Assembly (NCBI GenBank): GCA_958496175.1
Contig: OY292279.1
Coordinates: 10,478,001 to 10,542,000, forward strand
Direction of reading: 5' to 3'
DNA: 64,000 bases
Source of the DNA: Sisyra terminalis
Taxonomy: Eukaryota > Arthropoda > Insecta > Neuroptera > Sisyridae
The translations under genes and the position numbers were made by a program. A model generated the notes under the pieces. That model ran no database searches and was not told the origin of the DNA. It worked only from the letters and a program-made list of their open reading frames with translations. The number at the start of each line of letters is the position of its first letter. Position 1 is the first letter of the stretch. Below are positions 47,845 through 60,263 of this stretch, one piece after another.

Positions 47845-48290
47845 GCCGAGTGGTTTAGATGACCAAAACTGGTAGATTTTGGGTTCGATTCTCCTATCGA
47901 GCAAATTTTCAATATTTGGTTCGTTTATTTTGAAAGTGGCGTAAGTCCATTTCAAGGACGGTCTATATGATGATTCTTGTTCTTGTAACTGGAACAAAGT
48001 ATGTTAATTATTCAACTGCTAAGTTTTCAGAAATTACTGATTTCATTTTTTTTGTTAACAAAAACGCCAATTATTCCCTCCTCCTTAGTATCTTATGTTC
48101 CTATGGTTAAAAATGATAACACTATAGGGGTTGTTCTTGAAATGGACTTAACTCCCTTTCAAAATAAATGGTTCATTTCTCGAATAGTTTTTTTTAACCC
48201 TAGACTCGCTAAAGACCTTAGTAGTTAGTAGTTATAAATCGACAGGAATTAACAATTTTAAAAAAAGAATTATTGCCCTAAAACCCAATC
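47845..48290 (+). mobile_element. tRNA-derived SINE
   Basis: The head TAGCCGAGTGGTTTAGATG (A box-like) and GGGTTCGATTCTC (B box) 30 bp apart mimic a tRNA internal promoter. The body matches 32000-32265. The tail (AAAGACCTTAGTAGTTA...) is shared with 56280-56310. Confidence 0.65.
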
Positions 48291-48563
48291 ATATCATTTT
48301 TGTTATTTTCCTTTTTTACTATTTTATTTCAATTTTTGAGTAGATAAGGTTGAAGAATCATAAAGACGCTTCCTAATTATTTGATTGAATGTTGCAATGC
48401 AACATAAAAAAGGAACAAAACGGAAAGAAGAGACCAAAAAAAAATATTGTAAAAAAGAAAAAATATTTATTAATATCACATAATGTATACGTATAAAATA
48501 TTACTTAAACGTAAAATTGAACAAGCGTTCTAGAATAAGGAAAAAAGTAAATAAATAGGAGAG

Positions 48564-49707
48564 TTATTTAAAATGAAATTTCTTTTTATCAACAATGACA
48601 TTATTTTCGGACAATTTCCTTTGCGACTTGTACAACAGACGTCCGGACACGGAGCCACTCTTTAAATTCAAAATAGCGGCGCCTTGCCGCGGCGTGGCCG
48701 AAATCGATCGAAACGAATTGCTCATTGTTTGAATATTGGATATGTTGCGGGTGCCATTTGAAATTTGCAAGTGCTTCAAATGTTCAATGGGTGGCAGAAT
48801 GAAGTTGCGGGATGGTTTCACGAACTCTTTTCGCGCATCGTTAATAATGTTGTGGTTGTTTTCGTTGCGGGATTTAATTTCAACTAAATTGGTTTTTTCG
48901 TTGTGCATTTTACGCTTCGGCGTATAATATAGTGGAGGGATGCAAGGCAATGATGAGTACTCGTCTGATGGACTCGTTTGTCGATTGTGCCACTTCGGCG
49001 ACACTATTTCTATGGATAGTATGGACGAGTTGTTTGTTTTTAGTGGGGTGCTCGTTCGATTTAGGGGTGATATTCGTAGGTACTCGTCCAGGTCGTATCG
49101 GTTCCGTTTGTTTAAGGCACTGCTTCCGCAACTTGATCGTGGTATTTTTCGAGGTGTGCTGGTTTTTGTTCGGTTACATTTGGGAGATGATACTCGATAT
49201 GTTTGATTTCCGTATGTTGATTCTTGTTCTGCAACTTTGGTACCACAGATTCGGAGGTGTGGAAACGCTCGAATCCATTCATCGCACTCGTCACGAAGTT
49301 CTTGGCGCAGAGCGCCCGAATCGGCTTCTCCGTAGAGGACTTGTTCGATTAGCTCCAGGTGTTCACAAAGTTTTTTCGTTGTTTCACTATTGTATTCATC
49401 GAACCACGACACGGAACTCGACGTACTCTGATTGTCCCATGATTCCACATCACTTAAAACCGACGAGAACGAATTGTCCGGAATGCCTACGTCGAAATTT
49501 TCTTCCACAATAACACTTGACTCCAATTGACTAAAACTATCGCCCACTGTTGGCAAATCATAATTTGCACGTTCGGGTAACAAAAACGTTTTTTCCCTGG
49601 CTATTTTTATTTTGTTCACACCTCGAGAAATACTTCGTCCAGACATTGATTCAAAGATACCGCCAAGAGTTCTATCGTATTGATTTGTTACGAATGAATA
49701 AATCAGA
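48564..49707 (-). CDS. FAM149-like protein (DUF3719), 3' exon
   Basis: One long exon from an acceptor (TTTTTTTTAG) at about 49708 to a stop at 48564. If translation starts at the ATG at 49646 (MSGRSISRGVNK) the protein has 360 residues; upstream coding exons are possible because the frame is open to the acceptor. The conserved region, about residues 80-140, reads WFDEYNSETTKKLCEHLELI, a linker, and RDECDEWIRAFPHLRICGTK, containing the Trp and HLR signature of DUF3719 seen in FAM149 proteins. The rest is Ser/Asn-rich and probably disordered, with basic patches. FAM149B1 has been tied to primary cilia; function here is by analogy only. It is divergently placed to Sar1, with 1.1 kb between. An AATAAA lies near 48465 on this strand. 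Base composition is notably less AT-rich than its surroundings. Confidence 0.65.
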
Positions 49708-49709
49708 CT

Positions 49710-50805
49710 AAAAAAAATATATATACGCAAATGTTAATGAATGAGAAATTTGTGTGGAATTGAATAAATATGATTGTTTTGTATATGTACACAAATTTCT
49801 AGACAGAAATCATTGTTATAATTACAGTAATTCCGTGAAAAATCAAATTCAATTTGACAATTGAAATGAAAACATTGTCACCATTTTTAAAAACAACTGA
49901 TTATGCGCATTACACTTTATTGATTTCATTTAAATTTGAGAAAAAAAAAATCATCCCCTTATTCTTTTCTAATTTATGAATTATGAAAAAATGATTCAAT
50001 CGTTAAATTTTTTTTTTTTGTAAATTAAATTAAATATTTTCTTAACATATGATTTGAAATTTAATAAATACACCAAAATACACTAGATACACCGGAAATG
50101 GTATTTCGGAAATGACTAGCACCAATCAAAATCGATTACATAGAACTCTGTGGAACATTTAAAAATTGATCTTTTTCAAACACTCTTATCAAAAAATAAA
50201 AAGAAAAGAACTCAAAAAATGATATAAATTAAACTAATTACACATAATTCTTTCATTTAAGTAACTTTTGTAACAATTTATTGTCGTTAAAAGTAGTTTT
50301 TTTCGAAAAAGTCCTTTGCCCTTATGCCTATATTCTACATGGTGACATCATTTATGCCAACCAACCGATATGACGTTCTTTCATTGAAAAGTTCCAATTT
50401 TTGTTAGTTGTCATTTGACGAAAAATTGGAATTTTACATCAATAAATAGAAATTATTTTTCCGAAAATTGCTAATAAGACGTAAGTGACAATTTGTTGCA
50501 CCCATTAATAATATTCTATCTACGTTTCTACCGACGTTTCATTTGAAATACATGAAAAACTAACATAACCTTAAACAATACCCAAAAGAGATATGACATT
50601 TTTTTTTTCCCCATTTATAATTAATAACATTGAACTTTGTATTTTTATCACTCTATCTGGTAAAAATTTGCATGATTTATTTTTCCCATTGACATAGTGC
50701 TATTGTTCATTGTAAGCAATCTCATAGTGAAAAAGGCTGAGTCACTTCAGAAGTCTTTGATTTATAACATAAATTTCTTATTTTCCAGAAAAATACATTT
50801 CAATT
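49710..50805. other. divergent intergenic region between the FAM149-like gene and Sar1
   Basis: Should hold both promoters and a Sar1 5' UTR intron. A strong acceptor TTATTTTCCAG ends at 50788, just before the untranslated leader of Sar1 exon 1. No repeats recognised. Confidence 0.5.
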
Positions 50806-53800
50806 ATGTTCATTTGGGATTGGTTCACGGGCGTTCTCGGTTATTTAGGTGAGTAACGTTGAAATGGCGTTTTAAATCAATTGAAATTGAACGATTATAG
50901 GCCTTGTGCAGAAACAGGGTAGATATGGCATTGTAGGCCTAAACAACTCTGGAAAGAAAACTCTTTTAAGTCTATTAATTGAGGACAACTTAATTGCTCC
51001 AATTGATTGGCCTGATACTGTTTCTGATTGTAATGACAATAGTAAGTTCCTATTAACTGTTTTAATTTTCTTGTTGCATGGCTGTGTTTTGTTGGATCTC
51101 AAATACAATCATCAGGATTATGGAAGAAATCGGGCAAATTACTCTTTCTGGGACTGGACAATGCAGGGAAAACAACACTATTACATATGCTCAAAGATGA
51201 CCGGTTAGCACAACATGTGCCCACTTTACATCCCAGTAAGACAATGTTAATATTTGAAGACAATGATTGTTGTTTTGGCGTTAAAAACCAAAAAATAAGA
51301 TCAGTTACTTACAATACAGAATATCTGATCTTTTCTCGACAAATTTAATTGAATTTTAAGTGGTTTGCGATGAAAATTTTCAAGTTTTTTCGAATTGCCA
51401 ATCGTTTTACCGAATATATTATAATAGGTTGCTGAGAAGTACCTATTGATTAATTAATTTACATAAACAAATTAAATTAAGTCGTACGTTACTTAGTGTA
51501 TATTTGCACTAAGTAAAACTTTTTATTCGGAAATTATATATTTAATACTTTGCATGATAATGCTATGCTTTAAAGTTGATCAAAGAATCAAGCCGATTAA
51601 GTATTTGAAAACTAAACTCGCATCTAATGAAGGGATCTTACCTTGTATTTATTGTACCTAGCCATACACTTAATCTCACACCCCTCACCCTTATAGTAAG
51701 GCAATAGTAGGGGTGATAACACTTAAGGGTGGATCACCGTCAGAACGTAAAAAAAATGACTTTTTTAAAACTGCTGCCATTTTTTTTAGAGATATAAACG
51801 GTCTTCGGCATGTAAAAGTTGAAGTTTTGAACTATTTTTTTTTTATTTGCCCCGATATGTCCCCCCTACCCCTTTTACAGCGCTTTGAAAAAGGGTCCCA
51901 CAAAAATGAGGAGGCAAACAAGGGGAGACAAGTTTTCTCGGAAACCGGAAGTCGGATCATGATTTTCCAAAAAATGTAGATTTTGGTAATGCGTCTTCTT
52001 GGTACTGAACCTCGAAAATCCGAAAAAAGTTGAAAATTCACAAAATGGCACGACTTTGAAAAAAATTTAAAAAAAAACGACCTTTTTTTGAACCTTTCCC
52101 CGTCTCCCACTTTGAGGGGGGAGGTTTGGCCAATTTCAGAAGTTCAGTACCAAGAAGACGTGTTGAACTATAACACTCTCCAGTTTCAAGTCAATCCGTT
52201 GAATAGTTTCTGAGAAATCTTGTCTCCCAGTTTTAAAAAGTTGATTTCGAGAAAAACGCATTTAAAGTTTTTTTAAGATATTTTTTTATGTTATTATCAA
52301 TTTATTCAGTTTTTATTAGTGAAAATACATTAGTCAGCTATTCCAATCCTTTTAACACGTTATTCTTGAATGTTATAAGAAGACATTTATGGGAAAAAAA
52401 AATCGTTTTTTTTTAAATATATTTTTTCCCAGTACCTATTGAACATATCTTCATGAAATTGAAACTATATATGACTTAATAAATTAATTGCAATGTAATT
52501 TGCAGTATAGGAAACTGTGAAAAAACGAGAAGTATATTTTTTGGGGGTGGTTTTTCATATCAACCCCCAAAATTACACCTACCGAAAAAATATATTTTAT
52601 ATGTTAATTAGTTAGCTATCATATATTAAAGTTACAAAATGGTCGAATTGGTGGAACATGGAACATAATTAAAAAAACTAAAATCAAAGTATATGGTCAT
52701 AGTAAAGAGTGTATTATAGTTAATTCAATTACCTATACAAAATATAAAAATAATTCCGGATAGCCTAATTTTAATGAGCATTTAATCATCGTTGATGTTT
52801 TCTTCAACATTAGTAGTTATATAGATGGAGATCAAAATTTAAGCGGCTTTTGTAATCTTTGATTTATAACAAATATGTGATAAATAGTAAATAACAGTCG
52901 CTACATAAACGCAATAGGCTAATATTCTGTTCCTATTATATCCAACCATATGCATATCTTCTTATTTCGTCATAGGTGTTCGAATTTGGTAAAGTAATTA
53001 TATGTTTTGATTGTACTCTTACTTTTATATTTTCGCGATATCTAAAAAATTCAAGGGTTAATTTATTATTTAATATTTTAGGAAAATAACATACTGCTTT
53101 TGATAGTTAATAAGTGTTCGTTAATAATAATTTAAGGTCAGTTTATTCAGGTCTGGAAAATCCCTTACACTAGTTGAAGATAATTTCGTAAATAGTTATC
53201 AAAGCTGATTCAGGTTCTCATTTTTAAACAATTCTTAAATTGTATTCTGCTGATTTTCACGCTCTTTTATAAAGGCAATAATAGTATCGAAAAATTCGAC
53301 ATCTGAGTTCAATCTTTTATCAAAAGTGTTATTTAAAAATCCAGCTATTTTGACCAATGATGTTACCTTAGGTAGAAGATAGTTGTCCAGAACATTATGT
53401 AATAAATGGTATTTCTTATCAATAATGTAAAGCTTTAACAGCCTAACATACTTAAATAACTATTCATAATGCATTTACTTCTTCAAATAAAATTCGTGAA
53501 GTCGAATGCCATAAAATTGCATATTATTTATAGTGATATTTCATAGTTTATTTATAGGTATATAATTTTGTCGACAGTTAAAAGCTTTAAGAATGTATTT
53601 ATGATGATAAATATTAGACTGATTCAAAAAAAAAAATGATTTTTTTTTCTTAATTATATCGAAAATATTGTTGGAAATGACAAAAAAACTGAAAGTTTAA
53701 GCTCTTAATTAACTTAATTTACAAAAATGCATATTTTTGTCACTAGTTGGTCAAAAAAATAACGACGTACGGTTTTCTTACAACTAATTTTCTGCTCCAG

Positions 53801-54708
53801 TGCTGCCTATCCCTGGCGAGGTATTTCATTTCACTTCTGAACAAAATTAGAATTCCAAGTCGTCTTCATCCTCTTTTCTTGGATTCTTCCAGTTTTGATT
53901 ACAACTTGTTAATTGAGCATTTTATGAAATAAGTTTTGCAACAGAGGAAGCTTTAAGCAATTAAAACCCAATTTCTTCGGGTCCCTCTTATGGAAGAATA
54001 ATTTTGATATTTAGGGTTCACAATTTAAAGGAATAAGAGGAAAACGATTGGCGTTTGAAAAAAAGGACTAGAAGTATTCTAAGCAAATTACAGAAGAGTA
54101 TTTTATTAACATAGTCAATTTTTGTAGCATCCGAGGAACTATCTATTGGCAATATGAGGTTTACCACATTTGATTTAGGAGGCCACACACAAGGTATACT
54201 TTTCTACTAATAATAATTAATATGCTCTACTTATAGTTGATGAATATTAACCCGCATACTATGCCATTTTGTTTTTGAAGCTCGACGTGTTTGGAAGGAT
54301 TATTTTCCCGCAGTAGACGCAATTGTGTTTTTAATAGATGCATTTGATCGAGCCCGATTTGTCGAAAGCAAAGCCGAAATGGACTCACTGTTGAGTGACG
54401 AAACGTTGTCCAACTGTCCGGTGTTGGTTTTGGGTAATAAAATCGACAAACCGGGCGCAGCGTCCGAGGATGAACTACGAAACTATTTTGCCTTATACGG
54501 TCAAACTACGGGCAAAGTAAATTGACTACTATCTTTGTGGAAGGAATGAGGATTTGAGTTACTCTTCTTTTTTTTTTTTGTTTGATTTTAGGGAAAAGTT
54601 CCACGATCAGATTTACCAGGACGTCCATTAGAGTTATTTATGTGTTCGGTATTAAAACGTCAAGGATATGGAGAAGGTTTTCGCTGGCTAGCCCAATACA
54701 TTGACTGA
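50806..54708 (+). CDS. Sar1: Sar1 GTPase (COPII coat initiator)
   Basis: Coding exons 50806-50848, 51116-51235, 54128-54193, 54281-54516, 54592-54708 join to 193 residues, the normal Sar1 length. Sar1 recruits the COPII coat at ER exit sites. Visible: amphipathic N terminus [21 protein letters not shown]-loop [11 protein letters not shown], switch I TLHPTSEEL, switch II DLGGHTQARRVW, NKID, and [20 protein letters not shown] at the end. Every intron is GT/AG and phases agree. The ATG at 50806 is preceded by a UTR acceptor at 50788. Intron 2 is 2.9 kb, the others short. A second exon-2-like exon lies at 50901-51041. A candidate poly(A) signal AATAAA follows the stop at 54709. Confidence 0.96.
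50901..51041 (+). CDS. Sar1: alternative exon 2 of Sar1
   Basis: Between Sar1 exon 1 and the canonical exon 2 lies a 141-base open segment with acceptor GATTATAG and donor AGTAAGT. Spliced from exon 1 it continues [20 protein letters not shown] then [14 protein letters not shown], aligning with the canonical [34 protein letters not shown]. It enters and leaves in the same phase as the canonical exon, so skipping the canonical exon gives an intact 200-residue Sar1. The Thr after the P-loop Lys (Thr39 in mammalian Sar1, a Mg2+ ligand) is Lys here, Asp34 is Asn, and the switch I segment is replaced by a 7-residue-longer stretch ([12 protein letters not shown]). By family knowledge such changes should impair GTP binding. 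Expression is not shown; a decaying exon duplicate is the alternative, but no stop or broken splice site is seen. Confidence 0.7.
51236..54127. other. Sar1 intron 2
   Basis: 2.9 kb intron. Contains an inverted repeat around 51991-52161 (CGTCTTCTTGGTACTGAAC and its inverse), a less AT-rich block 51700-52180, and at about 53640-53720 a diverged tip of a family B arm (GTTGGAAATGACAAAAAAACT, GAAAGTTTAAGCTCTTAA). No further exon recognised. Confidence 0.5.
51991..52161. repeat. small inverted repeat in Sar1 intron 2
   Basis: GCGTCTTCTTGGTACTGAAC at about 51991 and GTTCAGTACCAAGAAGACGT at about 52142 are inverse copies 130 bp apart. Could be a remnant of a miniature transposon; boundaries unknown. 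Confidence 0.5.
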
Positions 54709-55259
54709 AATAAATAACTTTGGTTGTTATTTTTTTTTTCGTTTTGTAAAACTTCCATTGTGCAGTGTTTTTAATGTAATTTGCAACTTCATTTTATAAT
54801 TGGTTTCATTCATAACTTTACCATAGCCCGCGGACTGTTTTTTTTACAGTTATTTGATTCATTGGGAACAGATCCCTTATTTATACAAAAAAGAAAAAAA
54901 ATATATTTAAAATTATTCATTTAAATACAATTTGTTTATGAACTTCAATGGGATTGAATTTGAATTGTTTTTTTCTCTTTTTATCCTAATTAATGAGAGT
55001 ATGATTAAAAAGACGACGTTTTCATATACTTTAATTTCCAACAATAGTTGTAAGTCGACTTTTAATACTTCTAAATGTTATCTCATTTCGGTTTAGGTTT
55101 AATGTATTAAAAAAAGAAGTTAATATAAAATTGAAAAGGAGAAAAAAAATAAGAAAATTTAATAGTTATTTAAAATCTTTCCTTCATATTCCCAATTTAT
55201 AAAAAAATATTCCAATATTTATTCAATATACAAATTTATTTATTTGCTAAAAATATATG

Positions 55260-58200
55260 TTAGAGTTTATTTTTCAATGAGTTATCAGGGGGGAAATAGG
55301 CGTTTACTATTTCTTTAGTTACTGCTTCATAGTTGTTAGGATTCCATTTGGGCTTTCCATCTTTGTCAATCAAAACAGATCGTACACCTAAAACAATACA
55401 ATAAATAAAGAGGTAAATTCCATAACATTTAAGCAACTTTATCGTATGGTGTCCCAGGATTGAGCTTTCGAGTCCTATGATCCAATTCTAATATGTACCG
55501 GCTTTAATTTAGTTATAACACTTTTAAGCCTACTGGTGGCCGAGTGGTCAAGGTGGCCGCTCCAAAATTGGTAGGTGTTGGGTTCGATTCTCGTAGGAAT
55601 AGGAATCAGAGGAAAAACCTATCCACTCGGGGGTACCTCAAGGGGCCCAAGTGTACTTTAGCACACCCAAAATCTGACAATGTTGCATTTTCGACTTTTT
55701 TTTTAATTAAATTCGCGATATTTTTGTTAATTCCATTCTAATCTATTATTATAAAGAGGAAAGATTTGATTGTTTGTTTGCTTTGAATAGGCTCCGAAAC
55801 TAATTGACCGATTTGAAAAATTCTTTCACTGTTGGGAAGCTACACTATTTCCGGTGAACATAGGCTATATTAAATTTTCAAAAAAAATAGGAATCCATAA
55901 TAAAATTCCAATAATGTGTGAAAAAATTACTAAAAAACTTCCTTACATCGCATGCGCTAGTATGGTATAATTCTCTATTTTGTGAGGTTCTATATTTCTC
56001 TCTTTACATGAGCCCCTCAAGGATCAGTATTGGGTCCAATCCTTTTCAATCTCTACGTTGCGGACTTTCCGTCACTAGACCACTGTATAACCTCAATGTA
56101 CGCGGAGGACATCGCCATCATCAACCTGGAAAATGATCTTCAAAGGGCCGTTCAGAAAACCCAGCAGTCTATCAATTACCTATCTTCCTGGTTCAGTAGA
56201 TGGTAGATGGAAAATTCCTATATCGAGCAAATTTTCGATACTTCTCGATTACTGACTTTATTAACTCTAGAGCAGCTAAAGACCTTAGTAGTTATAAAGC
56301 AACGGTAAATAAGAAGTTAAAAAAATTGTCGACCTAGATTTAGGTAAGAAAGGTCAGGATAGCAAAGGTCATGATGGCCCTCTTGGACTCGCTTTTGGAA
56401 TTGATTGGGGGATTCTAATTTATAAAGGAAGAGTACAGCAGAGTTGTTACAATTGTTATCCTGATTCATTATTGAGGTCAAATTAAGGCTGGTTTGATTA
56501 TATAAGCCTAACGGGACCATATTTTTTTCCTTCAAAGCGGGATACCTGTAAATTTTAATACGTGAGAAAGTAACGGGACAATTAAGATTATAATATAGCT
56601 AAATTATAAATAACTAGCTAAAATTTATAGATACTTATTTATGTATGATTTTTATCCATGTACATTAGGTTTATGGCCTATGGGTTTTACACTATAGGTA
56701 TATGTATACTAGTGTGGGTCAAAAAAATCGTTTAAATTTTTTTTTACAAGTGACGCGGAAAAATGGGTTGCTAGACACCTTAAAAAAATTCTCACCAAGT
56801 ATGAGCTCTTAATTTTAATGGGAAGATCCTCCGCATCGCAGTTTTGTATTTTTTTCTCAGTCCAATAGAAAAAAAAACATACCTCATAATTTATCGATTG
56901 TACCGAAAAATGTTGTGAAAGAATTTTTTAGGAAATTTAATGCTCTACAAAAAAGGTATCTTATATTTTTTCCGTAAGCCTCACCATTTGAAAGATATTA
57001 AGGTTTTAATTTTGATTATTTTAAGACAAATTTCATTTTTATTTATGAATTTTATAACTCGACAATAAATGACTCTTATACAATGCGCAATTTTTGTTGG
57101 AAATTAACTGCTCTATAAAAATGGTTTCTTATGTTTTGACGATTAAATTAACCCTTCAAAAGATATTCATCATCAAACTTTCATGTGTATGGATTTTAAA
57201 AGTTTCTGATGAGATATTCGAATAATTTCAATTTAATTTATCGAAAAAATTACCCAACTTGCAACAAAAACTGGTTTGAAAATTGAAATAAAAAACTTTT
57301 TTATAACTAATTGGACATTGTGTATACAATATATAAAATATATTCCAGTCCAATTTATTAACATAAATTTGAACAGAAGTTCAAACAAAAATATTCGTGA
57401 CGTATTGCCCAGATACGTATTTCGATTTCCAAGAAATCTTCTTCAGTGGTCATTTGGATCACTCCGTAACTGCTTTGTGATGATTCACAAAGCAATCAAT
57501 CACAAAGCAGTTACGGAGTGATCCAAACTACTTGATGACCACTGATGAAGTTGCTTGGCAATCGAAATACGTATCTGGGCAATACGTCACGAATATTTTT
57601 GTTTGAACTTCTGTTCAAATTTATGTTAATAAATTGGACTGAAAAAAACTTTTTTGTTGACATTGTTTTTCTCTAATATTGAAATATATCATAATATATG
57701 TATAATGAAAACTTTACTTGTTTTAATAATAAATATTTAACTAAGCGATAAATAACGTAAAATTTATTTTTTTTTAAATGGAGACAAATATACTTAAGCA
57801 TAAAAAAAAACTTGAAAAATATTTTGAAGATTCTCAGTTGATAAAAACTAAAATTCGTGTAAATTTTCTCAAAAATTATAAATTAAATTGATTTTTTTCG
57901 AATATCTCATCAAAAACTTTTAAAACCCGTACACATGAAAGTTTGATGATGAATATCTTTTGAACGGTTAATTTAATCGCCAAAACATAAGAAACCATTT
58001 TTATAGAGCAGTTAATTTCCAACAAAAATTTATATTACGCATTGTATAAGAGTCATTTATTGTCGAGTTATAAAATTCATTAATAAAAATTAAATTTGTC
58101 TTAAAATAATCAAAATTAAATCCTTAATATCTTTCAAATGGTGAGGCTTACGGAAAAAATATAGAATACCTTTTTTGTAGAGCATTAAATTTCCTACAAA

Positions 58201-60263
58201 AATCTTTCAGAACATTTTTCTGTACAATCGATAAATGATGAGGTATGAATTTTTTTCTATTGGACTGAGAAAAAAAATACAAAACTGCGATGCGGAGGAT
58301 CTTCCCATTAAAATTAAGAGCTCATACTTGGTGAGAATTTTTTTAAGGTGTCTAGCAACTCATTTTTCCGCGTCACTTGTAAAAAAAAAAATAATCGATT
58401 TTTTTGACCCACCCTAATGTATACGGTATACAATATACCTGCATAATGATTTTGGTTGTGATGAATTAACACCTACCACAGGTCACTTTTTCTCAAAGCG
58501 AGTCATTTTTAGGTTCTTTGGGGACAGGAGAACGTATGGTCATGTTATATAACCCCCCCCCTGACTTGAAAGCTAGATCTATCGTTGAGGTACCCAACAG
58601 GGTAAAGTTTTCACTTCAAAAAGTGAACCAAGAAAAATTAAGGGCTCATGTGTATTTTAGCACACCCACAATCTGACAACGTTGCATTTTTGACTATTTT
58701 TTTAATTTAATTCGCGATTAAATCGGTCCATAATGAAAATGTAGCCACAAAAGAGAGAATTATACCATATTAGAATTGAATTAACACAAATATCGCGAAT
58801 TAAATTAAAAACAAAGTCGAAAATGTAACGTTGCCAGATTGTGGGTGTGCTAAAGTACACTTGAGCCCAGTCATGTATTTAAAATTAAGGGCTCATGTGT
58901 ACTTTAACACACCCGCAATCTGGCAATGTTGGATTTTCGACTATGGTTTTTAATTTAATTCGCGATTAAATCGATCCATAATGAAAATTTAGCCACAAAA
59001 GAGAGAATTATACCATATTAGAATTGAATAAACAAAAATATCGCGAATTAAATTAAAAACAGTCGAAAATGCTACGTTGCCAGATTGTGGGTGTGCTAAA
59101 GTACACTTGAGCCAAATTAAGACCTTAAAATTTGCAATTTTCTGGATTACCTTCGTAAAAATCGTTGCTACGAATAGCATATTTCGCCATGACAAGCTCC
59201 ATATCCAAACATTGATCCAACGTTAACATCATCCCCTTATAAAACTGGGCATGAGTCACTTTGAGACTGGTGGGTGACATTTTATCCAACGTTTTCATCG
59301 TCTGCTGTGCCCATGGAGTATCGAGCGTCTTCAATTTATGGAAAATGCCATCGAGAGTAATCGGCGAGAATGAATCATTTATCAGTAAAATATCATTTTT
59401 CAACGAGAACTCTGGCAATTGGCGTGGCTGGAATTTTTCTAAAATTTCCCGCACATCGTAATGGCTGCGACATTTCAACAATTCGTCGAACAATGCTGGT
59501 AAATTTTTGCTCTCGCAGTAGTGAGTGGCGATGTTGGCGTGGACGTTATCGGCGCCTTTTAGACGAGTCCCCGTCAGGGCTAAGTAGAGGCCCAAGTAGC
59601 CTTCGAGTCGCGGAAGGAAAAAGGAACCGCCTACGTCTGGGAAGAATCCTATGGCCGTTTCGGGCATGGCAAACAAAGTCCTTTCGGTGGCAACCCGGTA
59701 TCGTCCATGCACTGAAAGTCCGACACCACCTCCCATTGTAATCCCATCGATTAGGGCGATGTATGGCAACTTGTATTTTCCTATATAAGAGTTCAGTTTG
59801 TATTCCATGCGGAAAAAGTTTTCGCCGAGGGAATAGTCTTTTTTGTGGGAAGCCTCAGCGATTGCTCGCACATCACCACCGGCACAAAACGCCTTGGTAC
59901 CTTCCCCTTTGATTATCACTAACGCTTTGGCCTGTTCCCATTCTTTTAGGGCTAGCGCGATTTTTTGAATCATCGACGAATTAACTGCGTTCAATTGTTT
60001 AGGCCGATTTAATGTGATAACTCCTACATTTTGATTTGCCTCCAAAATTACATCGTCGACAATGGCAGGATTTATTTCAATTGCTGATTGTTTTTGTTGA
60101 CTCATTGAAGTGGTCGATTTCGATGAATTTGTACAAAAATAAGCCGGAAGTAAATGACCGTGGGATTTATACAGCGAATATTTCAATACCTTACGTATAA
60201 GGGTCTGGAAAACAAATACTTAGAATTAATTAAAGTTCAATATTTAATTAATGACGTTACCAT
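55260..60263 (-). CDS. Hibch: 3-hydroxyisobutyryl-CoA hydrolase, mitochondrial
   Basis: Coding exons 60263-60261 (the ATG alone), 60204-59151 and 55387-55260 join to 394 residues (human 386). The enzyme hydrolyses 3-hydroxyisobutyryl-CoA in mitochondrial valine breakdown. Crotonase-fold motifs: [19 protein letters not shown] (about 55-73), [20 protein letters not shown] (oxyanion hole), [16 protein letters not shown], and [20 protein letters not shown] with the catalytic Glu and Asp, then the HIBCH tail [16 protein letters not shown] in the last exon. The N terminus [20 protein letters not shown] is basic and amphipathic, fitting a mitochondrial presequence. The start codon is separated from the rest by a 56 bp intron directly after ATG; MKY at 60186 is an alternative in-frame start. 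Intron 2 is 3.8 kb and full of mobile elements. AATAAA signals follow the stop near 55240. Confidence 0.93.
55532..55742 (+). mobile_element. tRNA-derived SINE with a family F arm as tail
   Basis: GGTGGCCGAGTGGTCAAGG (A box) and TTGGGTTCGATTCTC (B box) imitate a leucine/serine-type tRNA. After CTCGGGGGTACCTCAAG the sequence becomes AAGTGTACTTTAGCACACCC...TTGCATTTTCGACTTTTTTTT, an arm of family F. In the HIBCH intron 2. Confidence 0.7.
55743..55925 (-). mobile_element. fragment of the CTAGCTGATCCCC family, inverted
   Basis: Reverse complement of the tail at 44500-44675 (TCCGAAACTAATTGACCGAT, TTCCGGTGAACATAGGCTAT). Confidence 0.55.
56005..56310 (+). mobile_element. reverse transcriptase fragment (jockey-like) followed by a SINE tail
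   Basis: One frame reads [20 protein letters not shown] and later [20 protein letters not shown], the RT palm with YAED in place of YADD, ending at a stop near 56202. From about 56216 the sequence TCGAGCAAATTTTCGATA...AAAGACCTTAGTAGTTATAAA resembles the SINE at 47895 and 48205. A dead fragment. Confidence 0.65.
56710..58416. mobile_element. long palindromic element, family E, containing family A copy 3
   Basis: Ends TAGTGTGGGTCAAAAAAATC and inverted GATTTTTTTGACCCACCCTA, flanked by ATGTATAC (56702-56709, 58417-58424). Arms about 540 bp with CTTCCCATTAAAATTAAGAG, GCTCTACAAAAAAGGTAT and CAAACTTTCATGTGTATGG recurring inverted. The loop has been hit by a family A element. Longest inverted repeat in the window. 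Confidence 0.8.
57303..57642 (-). mobile_element. palindromic retroelement-like repeat, family A copy 3
   Basis: Flanked by AAAAAACTTTTTT (57290-57302, 57643-57655). Shares TGTGTATACAATATATAAAA, CAGTCCAATTTATTAACATA and its inverse, and both ATACGTATTTCGATT arms. The central spacer contains TTTGTGATGATTCACAAA. It lacks the CGCTGACTTTGAACAG block present in copies 1, 2 and 4. Confidence 0.8.
58642..58867. mobile_element. inverted-repeat miniature element, family F copy 2
   Basis: Starts GGGCTCATGTGTATTTTAGC, ends GCTAAAGTACACTTGAGCCC. Same arms as 23690-23907 and the spacer CACAAAAGAGAGAATTATAC. Confidence 0.65.
58889..59113. mobile_element. inverted-repeat miniature element, family F copy 3
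   Basis: Flanked by AAATTAAG on both sides (about 58881-58888, 59114-59121), an 8 bp duplication consistent with hAT-type insertion. It ends about 30 bp from the donor of HIBCH exon 2. Confidence 0.65.

Follow-up and report, generated by a model that had tools for sequence, protein, structure and literature searches.

Between exons 1 and 3, the Sar1 gene of the neuropteran Sisyra terminalis contains two consecutive candidate second exons, raising the question of whether the upstream one (exon 2a) is a dead copy of the canonical one (exon 2b) or provides the insect with a second Sar1. Sar1 is a switch protein that triggers COPII transport and initiates export from the endoplasmic reticulum (ER); its Thr39 mutant is routinely used to block this export. 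An earlier note on this locus had claimed that the upstream exon encodes an altered P-loop (GKK for GKT) and a rewritten switch I, and that its use could provide a built-in regulator of ER export. We report here a computational analysis of this proposal. All coordinates refer to the window, i.e., the whole stretch of 64 kb of contig OY292279.1 that was analyzed.

Results

Two frame-compatible second exons in Sar1

The Sar1 gene occupies positions 50806 to 54708 of the plus strand. Exon 1 (50806 to 50848, 43 nt) encodes the N-terminal helix in a 14-residue stretch and ends in phase 1. It is followed by a 52-nt intron (50849 to 50900), which is devoid of yTnAy and has 7 pyrimidines among the 16 positions before the acceptor. 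Candidate exon 2a (50901 to 51041, 141 nt) is preceded by AG and followed by GTAAGT, and it encodes a noncanonical P-loop and a rewritten switch I. An intron of 74 nt (51042 to 51115) separates it from canonical exon 2b (51116 to 51235, 120 nt), which is preceded by AG, is followed by GTAAGA, and encodes a canonical P-loop. Exon 3 (54128 to 54193) contributes a 21-residue stretch containing switch II, exon 4 (54281 to 54516) the NKID motif, and exon 5 (54592 to 54708) the C-terminal part, with the stop codon at its end. Translation of exons 2a and 2b affords 47 and 40 residues, respectively, each followed by a Thr residue that is completed across the junction with exon 3. Since both exons are entered and left in phase 1, with lengths divisible by three, exon 3 is in frame after either of them, and the open spliced products comprise 193 residues with exon 2b and 200 residues with exon 2a. 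Thus, the two exon-2-like segments with GT/AG sites, a common phase, and alignable P-loops, as described in the earlier note, were confirmed, and the junction predicted between 51041 and 54128 proved correct. The intact splice sites and phase of exon 2a argue against a dead or dying exon duplicate, an explanation that we consider improbable and according to which the database isoforms described below would be by-products of gene prediction.

A search with the canonical protein returned 5956 proteins at E ≤ 0.001, the best 120 of which were listed. Among these, the best named full-length insect Sar1 proteins were those of Aethina, Gryllus, and Photinus, with 93% identity to the canonical product over its full length; 181 of the 193 residues were identical in the canonical part of a Timema californicum model. 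When canonical Sar1 was used to place the species, Timema came nearest, with no supported placement. Both spliced products belong to the Arf family (PF00025), with scores of 204 bits for the canonical product and 156.5 bits for the 2a product (cut-off, 22.3), exon 2a alone remaining under the cut-off at 15 bits. Comparison of the whole product with solved structures identified SAR1b chains as the best matches.

Exon 2a can be aligned with exon 2b along the first strand and the P-loop and into the beginning of switch I, with 16 identities in 41 aligned residues. The two exons are adjacent, homologous, and in the same phase, as are the members of mutually exclusive exon pairs. A P-loop search pattern, G[LVIAM]xx[SAC]G[KR]x[TS][LIV], had two matches in the six frames of the window, namely, exons 2a and 2b. 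No match occurred in 40 random sequences that reproduced the dinucleotide frequencies of the window, leading us to reject a chance origin. The sole DNA match of the 381-base region of exons 2a and 2b in the S. terminalis genome (376.6 Mb, 11 contigs) was the region itself.

Other features lie close to Sar1. A 388-residue open frame (48564 to 49730, minus strand) is located just upstream of the gene on the opposite strand. Downstream, the open frame at 59125 to 60186 (minus strand) resembles a 3-hydroxyisobutyryl-CoA hydrolase, with a probable last exon at about 55290 to 55390 (minus strand); such a gene would be convergent with Sar1. The segment at 56010 to 56210 (plus strand) is presumably part of a broken LINE reverse transcriptase, based on a motif, and that at 55535 to 55680 (plus strand) presumably a tRNA-derived short repeat, based on stretches resembling A and B boxes. 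ARAGORN detected no tRNA in positions 48000 to 58000, and Rfam gave no match in the 64-kb window.

Exon 2a has counterparts in beetles, Hymenoptera, and stick insects

A single-sequence search with Sisyra exon 2a produced three candidates, none at E ≤ 10, because the exon is too diverged for this approach. Among the listed matches of the canonical protein, four insect models contained a 2a-like segment immediately preceding their canonical second exon, the two exons being in series: Timema californicum (P0002), Timema cristinae (P0088), Molorchus minor (P0021), and Trichomalopsis sarcophagae (P0108). An exon profile was built from Sisyra and three of these models, P0088 being left out and the tail consisting partly of X. 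The profile search gave 3429 matches from 5144 candidates, of which the best 120 were listed, and 13 further entries outranked every listed canonical insect protein. Comparison of the sequences revealed that the alternative segment replaces the canonical exon in these 13 entries, which originate from the beetles Onthophagus taurus, Sitophilus oryzae, Hypothenemus hampei, Euwallacea fornicatus, Leptinotarsa decemlineata, Aethina tumida, Tribolium castaneum, Dendroctonus ponderosae, Zophobas morio, and Harmonia axyridis and from the hymenopterans Orussus abietinus, Cephus cinctus, and Neodiprion pinetum. The upstream exon is therefore present in at least 17 entries from 17 species among the matches listed (11 beetles, 4 Hymenoptera, and 2 Timema), a taxonomic spread that is that of the best 120 profile matches and says nothing on flies, moths, or bugs. 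As indicated by leave-one-out tests, members that are diverged or truncated may escape the profile: once their own kind was omitted, the Trichomalopsis rows ranked with the canonical proteins, and so did P0088, a model devoid of exon 1, which also ranked there in the final profile search.

The comparison with related loci suggested by the earlier note thus uncovered a homologous open exon at the same place in the Sar1 genes of other insects. Judging from the sequences compared, exon 2a is not private to Sisyra and extends to at least three insect orders. The exon is already known in databases in the form of isoforms X1, X2, or X3 of beetles and sawflies, which correspond to the 2a isoform and for which there are annotation names only.

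Both isoforms were retrieved for five species and differed in exon 2 only, with no downstream difference in Aethina, Zophobas, Harmonia, and Euwallacea (138 residues each) or in Cephus (116 residues). At the level of annotation, these five pairs display the pattern of mutually exclusive exons. In all, 13 replacement isoforms, including five exact pairs, stand against four insect gene models with both exons, the latter being of the kind expected if gene prediction had picked up a dead exon. Isoform models of the replacement kind usually rest on introns detected by RNA-seq. None of the 17 exon-bearing entries had a jgi or lgn source, compared to 79 of the 120 listed rows of the canonical search (hand count). 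This is compatible with a dead exon and indicates that the isoform may be rare; it suggests low abundance, narrow expression, or a small number of such sources from these insects. In the Cephus gene model, either exon 2 is also combined with the same shortened, different C terminus (isoforms X3 and X4; P0129 and P0144), indicating a second splice choice in that model.

The alternative exons form a single clade with its own signature

We aligned 17 canonical exons with 17 alternative exons, the latter from Sisyra, the 13 replacement isoforms, Molorchus, T. californicum, and Trichomalopsis (P0088 was left out). With soybean and chytrid rows excluded from the canonical and between-set means, mean identity was 43% among the alternative exons, 97% among the canonical exons, and 32% between the two sets. 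In the tree, based on 43 columns and with most inner forks unresolved, all 17 alternative exons were on one side of a branch with support of 99/99. Separate origins of the insect 2a exons, which we had considered, were not supported by this single clade.

Column numbers below are those of the window product, Sar1b numbers being five higher up to Thr39. All 17 alternative exons have Lys or Arg at column 22 and Tyr or Phe at column 23, where the canonical insect exons have Lys-Leu, and Gly at columns 27 and 32. Column 31 is Ser in 16 exons and Cys in one, the canonical residue being Ala, and column 35 is Ser in 9 and Thr in 8. Asp is found in none of the 17 exons at column 29, the equivalent of Asp34. 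Column 33 (Lys38) is Lys in 12 and Arg in 5, whereas column 34 (Thr39) is occupied by Ala in 8, His in 3, Thr in 2, and Lys, Val, Cys, and Arg in one each. The P-loop core is conserved in all 17 exons, which span Polyneoptera and Endopterygota.

These constraints bear on two explanations. The fast divergence indicated by 43% mean identity, against 97% for the canonical exons, is what a dead exon would display, but retention of the P-loop core across such distant insects and grouping in one clade with its own signature speak against it. The basic-aromatic pair at columns 22 and 23 is a constraint absent from the canonical exon, and constraints specific to exon 2a suggest new contacts rather than mere loss. 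They are thus consistent with a pseudoGTPase having a positive, nucleotide-independent role, such as an ER exit site scaffold or a lipid- or cargo-linked function, instead of an inhibitor. The rest of the protein being unchanged in the five isoform pairs is also in favor of this role, although exons 3 to 5 are common to canonical Sar1 and hence could not be tuned to a new one. We regard this explanation as unlikely, albeit credible.

Predicted nucleotide cycle defect of the 2a isoform

In the Sisyra 2a isoform, Asp34 is replaced by Asn and Thr39 by Lys, and Thr60 is retained. The mapping to Thr39 was backed by alignment with solved Sar1b T39N, and a solved T39N Sar1 entry (8e0b) was among the structure matches. 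The alteration of Thr39 and of switch I that had been proposed for exon 2a was therefore borne out. The GKK P-loop held for Sisyra and did not generalize, since it was found in 1 of the 17 compared exons, Sisyra being the only one with Lys at the Thr39 position.

The codon for residue 60 spans the junction: the last base of exon 2 comes first and decides the residue, and exon 3 supplies the following CA. Thr60 is kept in Sisyra since exon 2a ends in A. In the 13 replacement isoforms, residue 60 is Ala in 10 (all beetles), Pro in 2 (Orussus and Neodiprion), and Thr in 1 (Cephus). Both Thr39 and Thr60 are absent from 10 of the 13 isoforms (8 of the 10 beetles and 2 of the 3 sawflies and kin), one of the two is absent from the remaining 3, and both are kept in none. 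Counting against the interpretation favored below, Leptinotarsa retains Thr39 and has lost Thr60, as has Onthophagus, which alone among the 17 exons retains both Lys38 and Thr39.

The equivalents of Thr39 and Thr60 hold Mg in structures of the Arf family. The Sisyra 2a isoform lacks the combination of Asp34, Thr39, and Thr60 characteristic of a Sar1 GTPase with an active cycle. The alterations would be confined to the P-loop and switch I, leaving exon 1 and both switch II and the NKID motif unchanged. With the loss of Asp34 and of one or both Mg threonines, the 2a isoform is predicted to be unable to hold Mg-GTP normally and hence to be defective in its nucleotide cycle. AlphaFold models were poor for both the alternative isoform of Aethina and the canonical control (mean pLDDT of 58 and 66, respectively, with 28 alignment rows).

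In-frame replacement of exon 2b combined with alteration of Lys38 or Thr39 in 16 of the 17 exons could also reflect a throttle, in which inclusion of exon 2a lowers the output of functional Sar1 by diverting it to a useless and inert protein. Such a throttle requires no conserved amino acid signature, yet exon 2a has one, and it would be equally served by a frame-breaking exon. We find it improbable.

Neutral decay fits the 2a exons poorly

We simulated decay by mutating exon 2b at the base composition of the intron, with random draws per site. After one draw per site, 5% of the frames were open and none of 4000 were open with the core GxxxxG[KR]x[ST]. The corresponding values were 14% and 1.1% for half a draw per site and 27% and 7% for a quarter draw, whereas all 17 compared exons combine an open frame with the core. 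The simulation describes one lineage without indels, matches divergence inexactly, and is set against real lineages that are not independent. In addition, entries of a protein database are open by selection, so that their openness is in part a matter of ascertainment, a point in favor of a dead exon. Neutral decay nevertheless appears to fit the 2a exons poorly. As judged from the alignment, the signature that distinguishes them from the canonical exon is a stronger argument than the simulation of openness.

A possible mechanism for exclusive use of exons 2a and 2b

In the 74-nt intron, yTnAy is matched only at adenines located 15 and 24 nt downstream of the 2a donor; no AG occurs between them and the 2b acceptor. 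The latter feature alone is weak, since 7% of the 66-nt stretches of the window are also devoid of AG. In the OGDH gene, branch points located 25 to 41 nt from the donor enforce exclusive use of exons 4a and 4b, and a donor-to-branch point threshold of about 50 nt has been proposed, according to the available part of that report (PMC7969005). By analogy, branch points near the donor in the 74-nt intron could prevent joining of exons 2a and 2b and thereby impose exclusivity. This parallel may hold for Sar1, a non-consensus branch point nearer to the acceptor being possible. The steric argument is weakened by the 52-nt intron, which, if spliced, works under the threshold of about 50 nt. We also considered that exon 2a might have clearly weaker splice sites; this idea was dropped, since the 2a and 2b donors match the consensus at 7 and 6 of 9 positions and their acceptors are preceded by 7 and 8 pyrimidines in 16 positions, respectively.

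Discussion

Recurrence of the exon in beetles, wasps, sawflies, and stick insects leads us to conclude, from sequence comparison, that exon 2a probably makes a second Sar1 that behaves differently rather than being a dead copy. We consider it reasonably likely that exon 2a is a functional alternative used instead of exon 2b, yielding a Sar1 pseudoGTPase isoform that damps COPII assembly. Splice choice of exon 2a would produce a Sar1 in which the membrane helix, switch II, and the base-binding motif are retained. Without Asp34 and the Mg threonine(s), this isoform would not hold Mg-GTP normally and would reside at the ER membrane in a GDP-like or nucleotide-poor state, where it might also occupy the exchange factor Sec12. 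COPII assembly would thereby be damped where splicing favors exon 2a. Sar1-T39N is described as restricted to GDP; in human cells, it displaces Sec24 and most of Sec16 from exit sites (PMC1761133). It is from this effect on exit sites that we infer a COPII brake for the 2a isoform. Of the interpretation given in the earlier note, the frame-compatible duplicate and the altered Thr39 and switch I have stood, and the test that it proposed revealed an open exon in relatives; the impaired GTP binding is predicted, and the regulatory function keeps the graded likelihood stated here.

The 2a isoform resembles Sar1 T39N (PMC1761133) in that the Thr that follows the P-loop Lys and coordinates Mg is missing from a Sar1 that is otherwise normal. 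It differs from this mutant in that the change is natural, exon encoded, distributed over several orders, and accompanied by loss of Asp34 and by a rewritten and mostly longer switch I. Like exons 2a and 2b, OGDH exons 4a and 4b are adjacent, homologous, and in the same phase and are separated by a short intron whose branch points lie close to the donor of the upstream exon (PMC7969005, in the part available), and G-alpha genes also contain mutually exclusive adjacent homologous exons (PMC5896119, likewise in part). Tandem duplicated, mutually exclusive exons are also present in insect Mhc and Dscam. Unlike Sar1 exon 2a, the OGDH and G-alpha pairs, as presented in those parts of the reports, do not deprive an essential GTPase of a P-loop ligand.

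A second homologue of exon 2 also occurs directly before the canonical exon in Sar1b of the spider Trichonephila clavipes (P0018, residues ~15 to 54). Both segments of this protein, which are in series, have a canonical P-loop, unlike insect exon 2a, and the extra exon groups with the canonical exons in the tree. On these grounds, the spider duplication is probably a separate event.

A description of an alternative Sar1 exon 2 was not found among the titles and abstract openings listed by the literature searches, a set outside most subscription papers, bioRxiv, and supplements. In the available portions of text, an article on evolution of the Arf family (PMC8358228) contained no occurrence of "splic" or "isoform," and PMC3303723 contained no occurrence of Sar1.

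A broader proposal, which we offer tentatively as possible rather than probable, is that a splice switch to a Mg-site-defective Sar1, a natural equivalent of T39N, predates the divergence of stick insects from beetles and wasps and has been retained in insects, serving to turn ER export down or to run a GTP-independent step in particular cells. If true, a large part of insects would possess a regulator of secretion that operates by exon choice and for which we found no description, and the Sar1 gene would offer a clean case of alternative splicing generating a pseudoGTPase from the gene of an essential GTPase.
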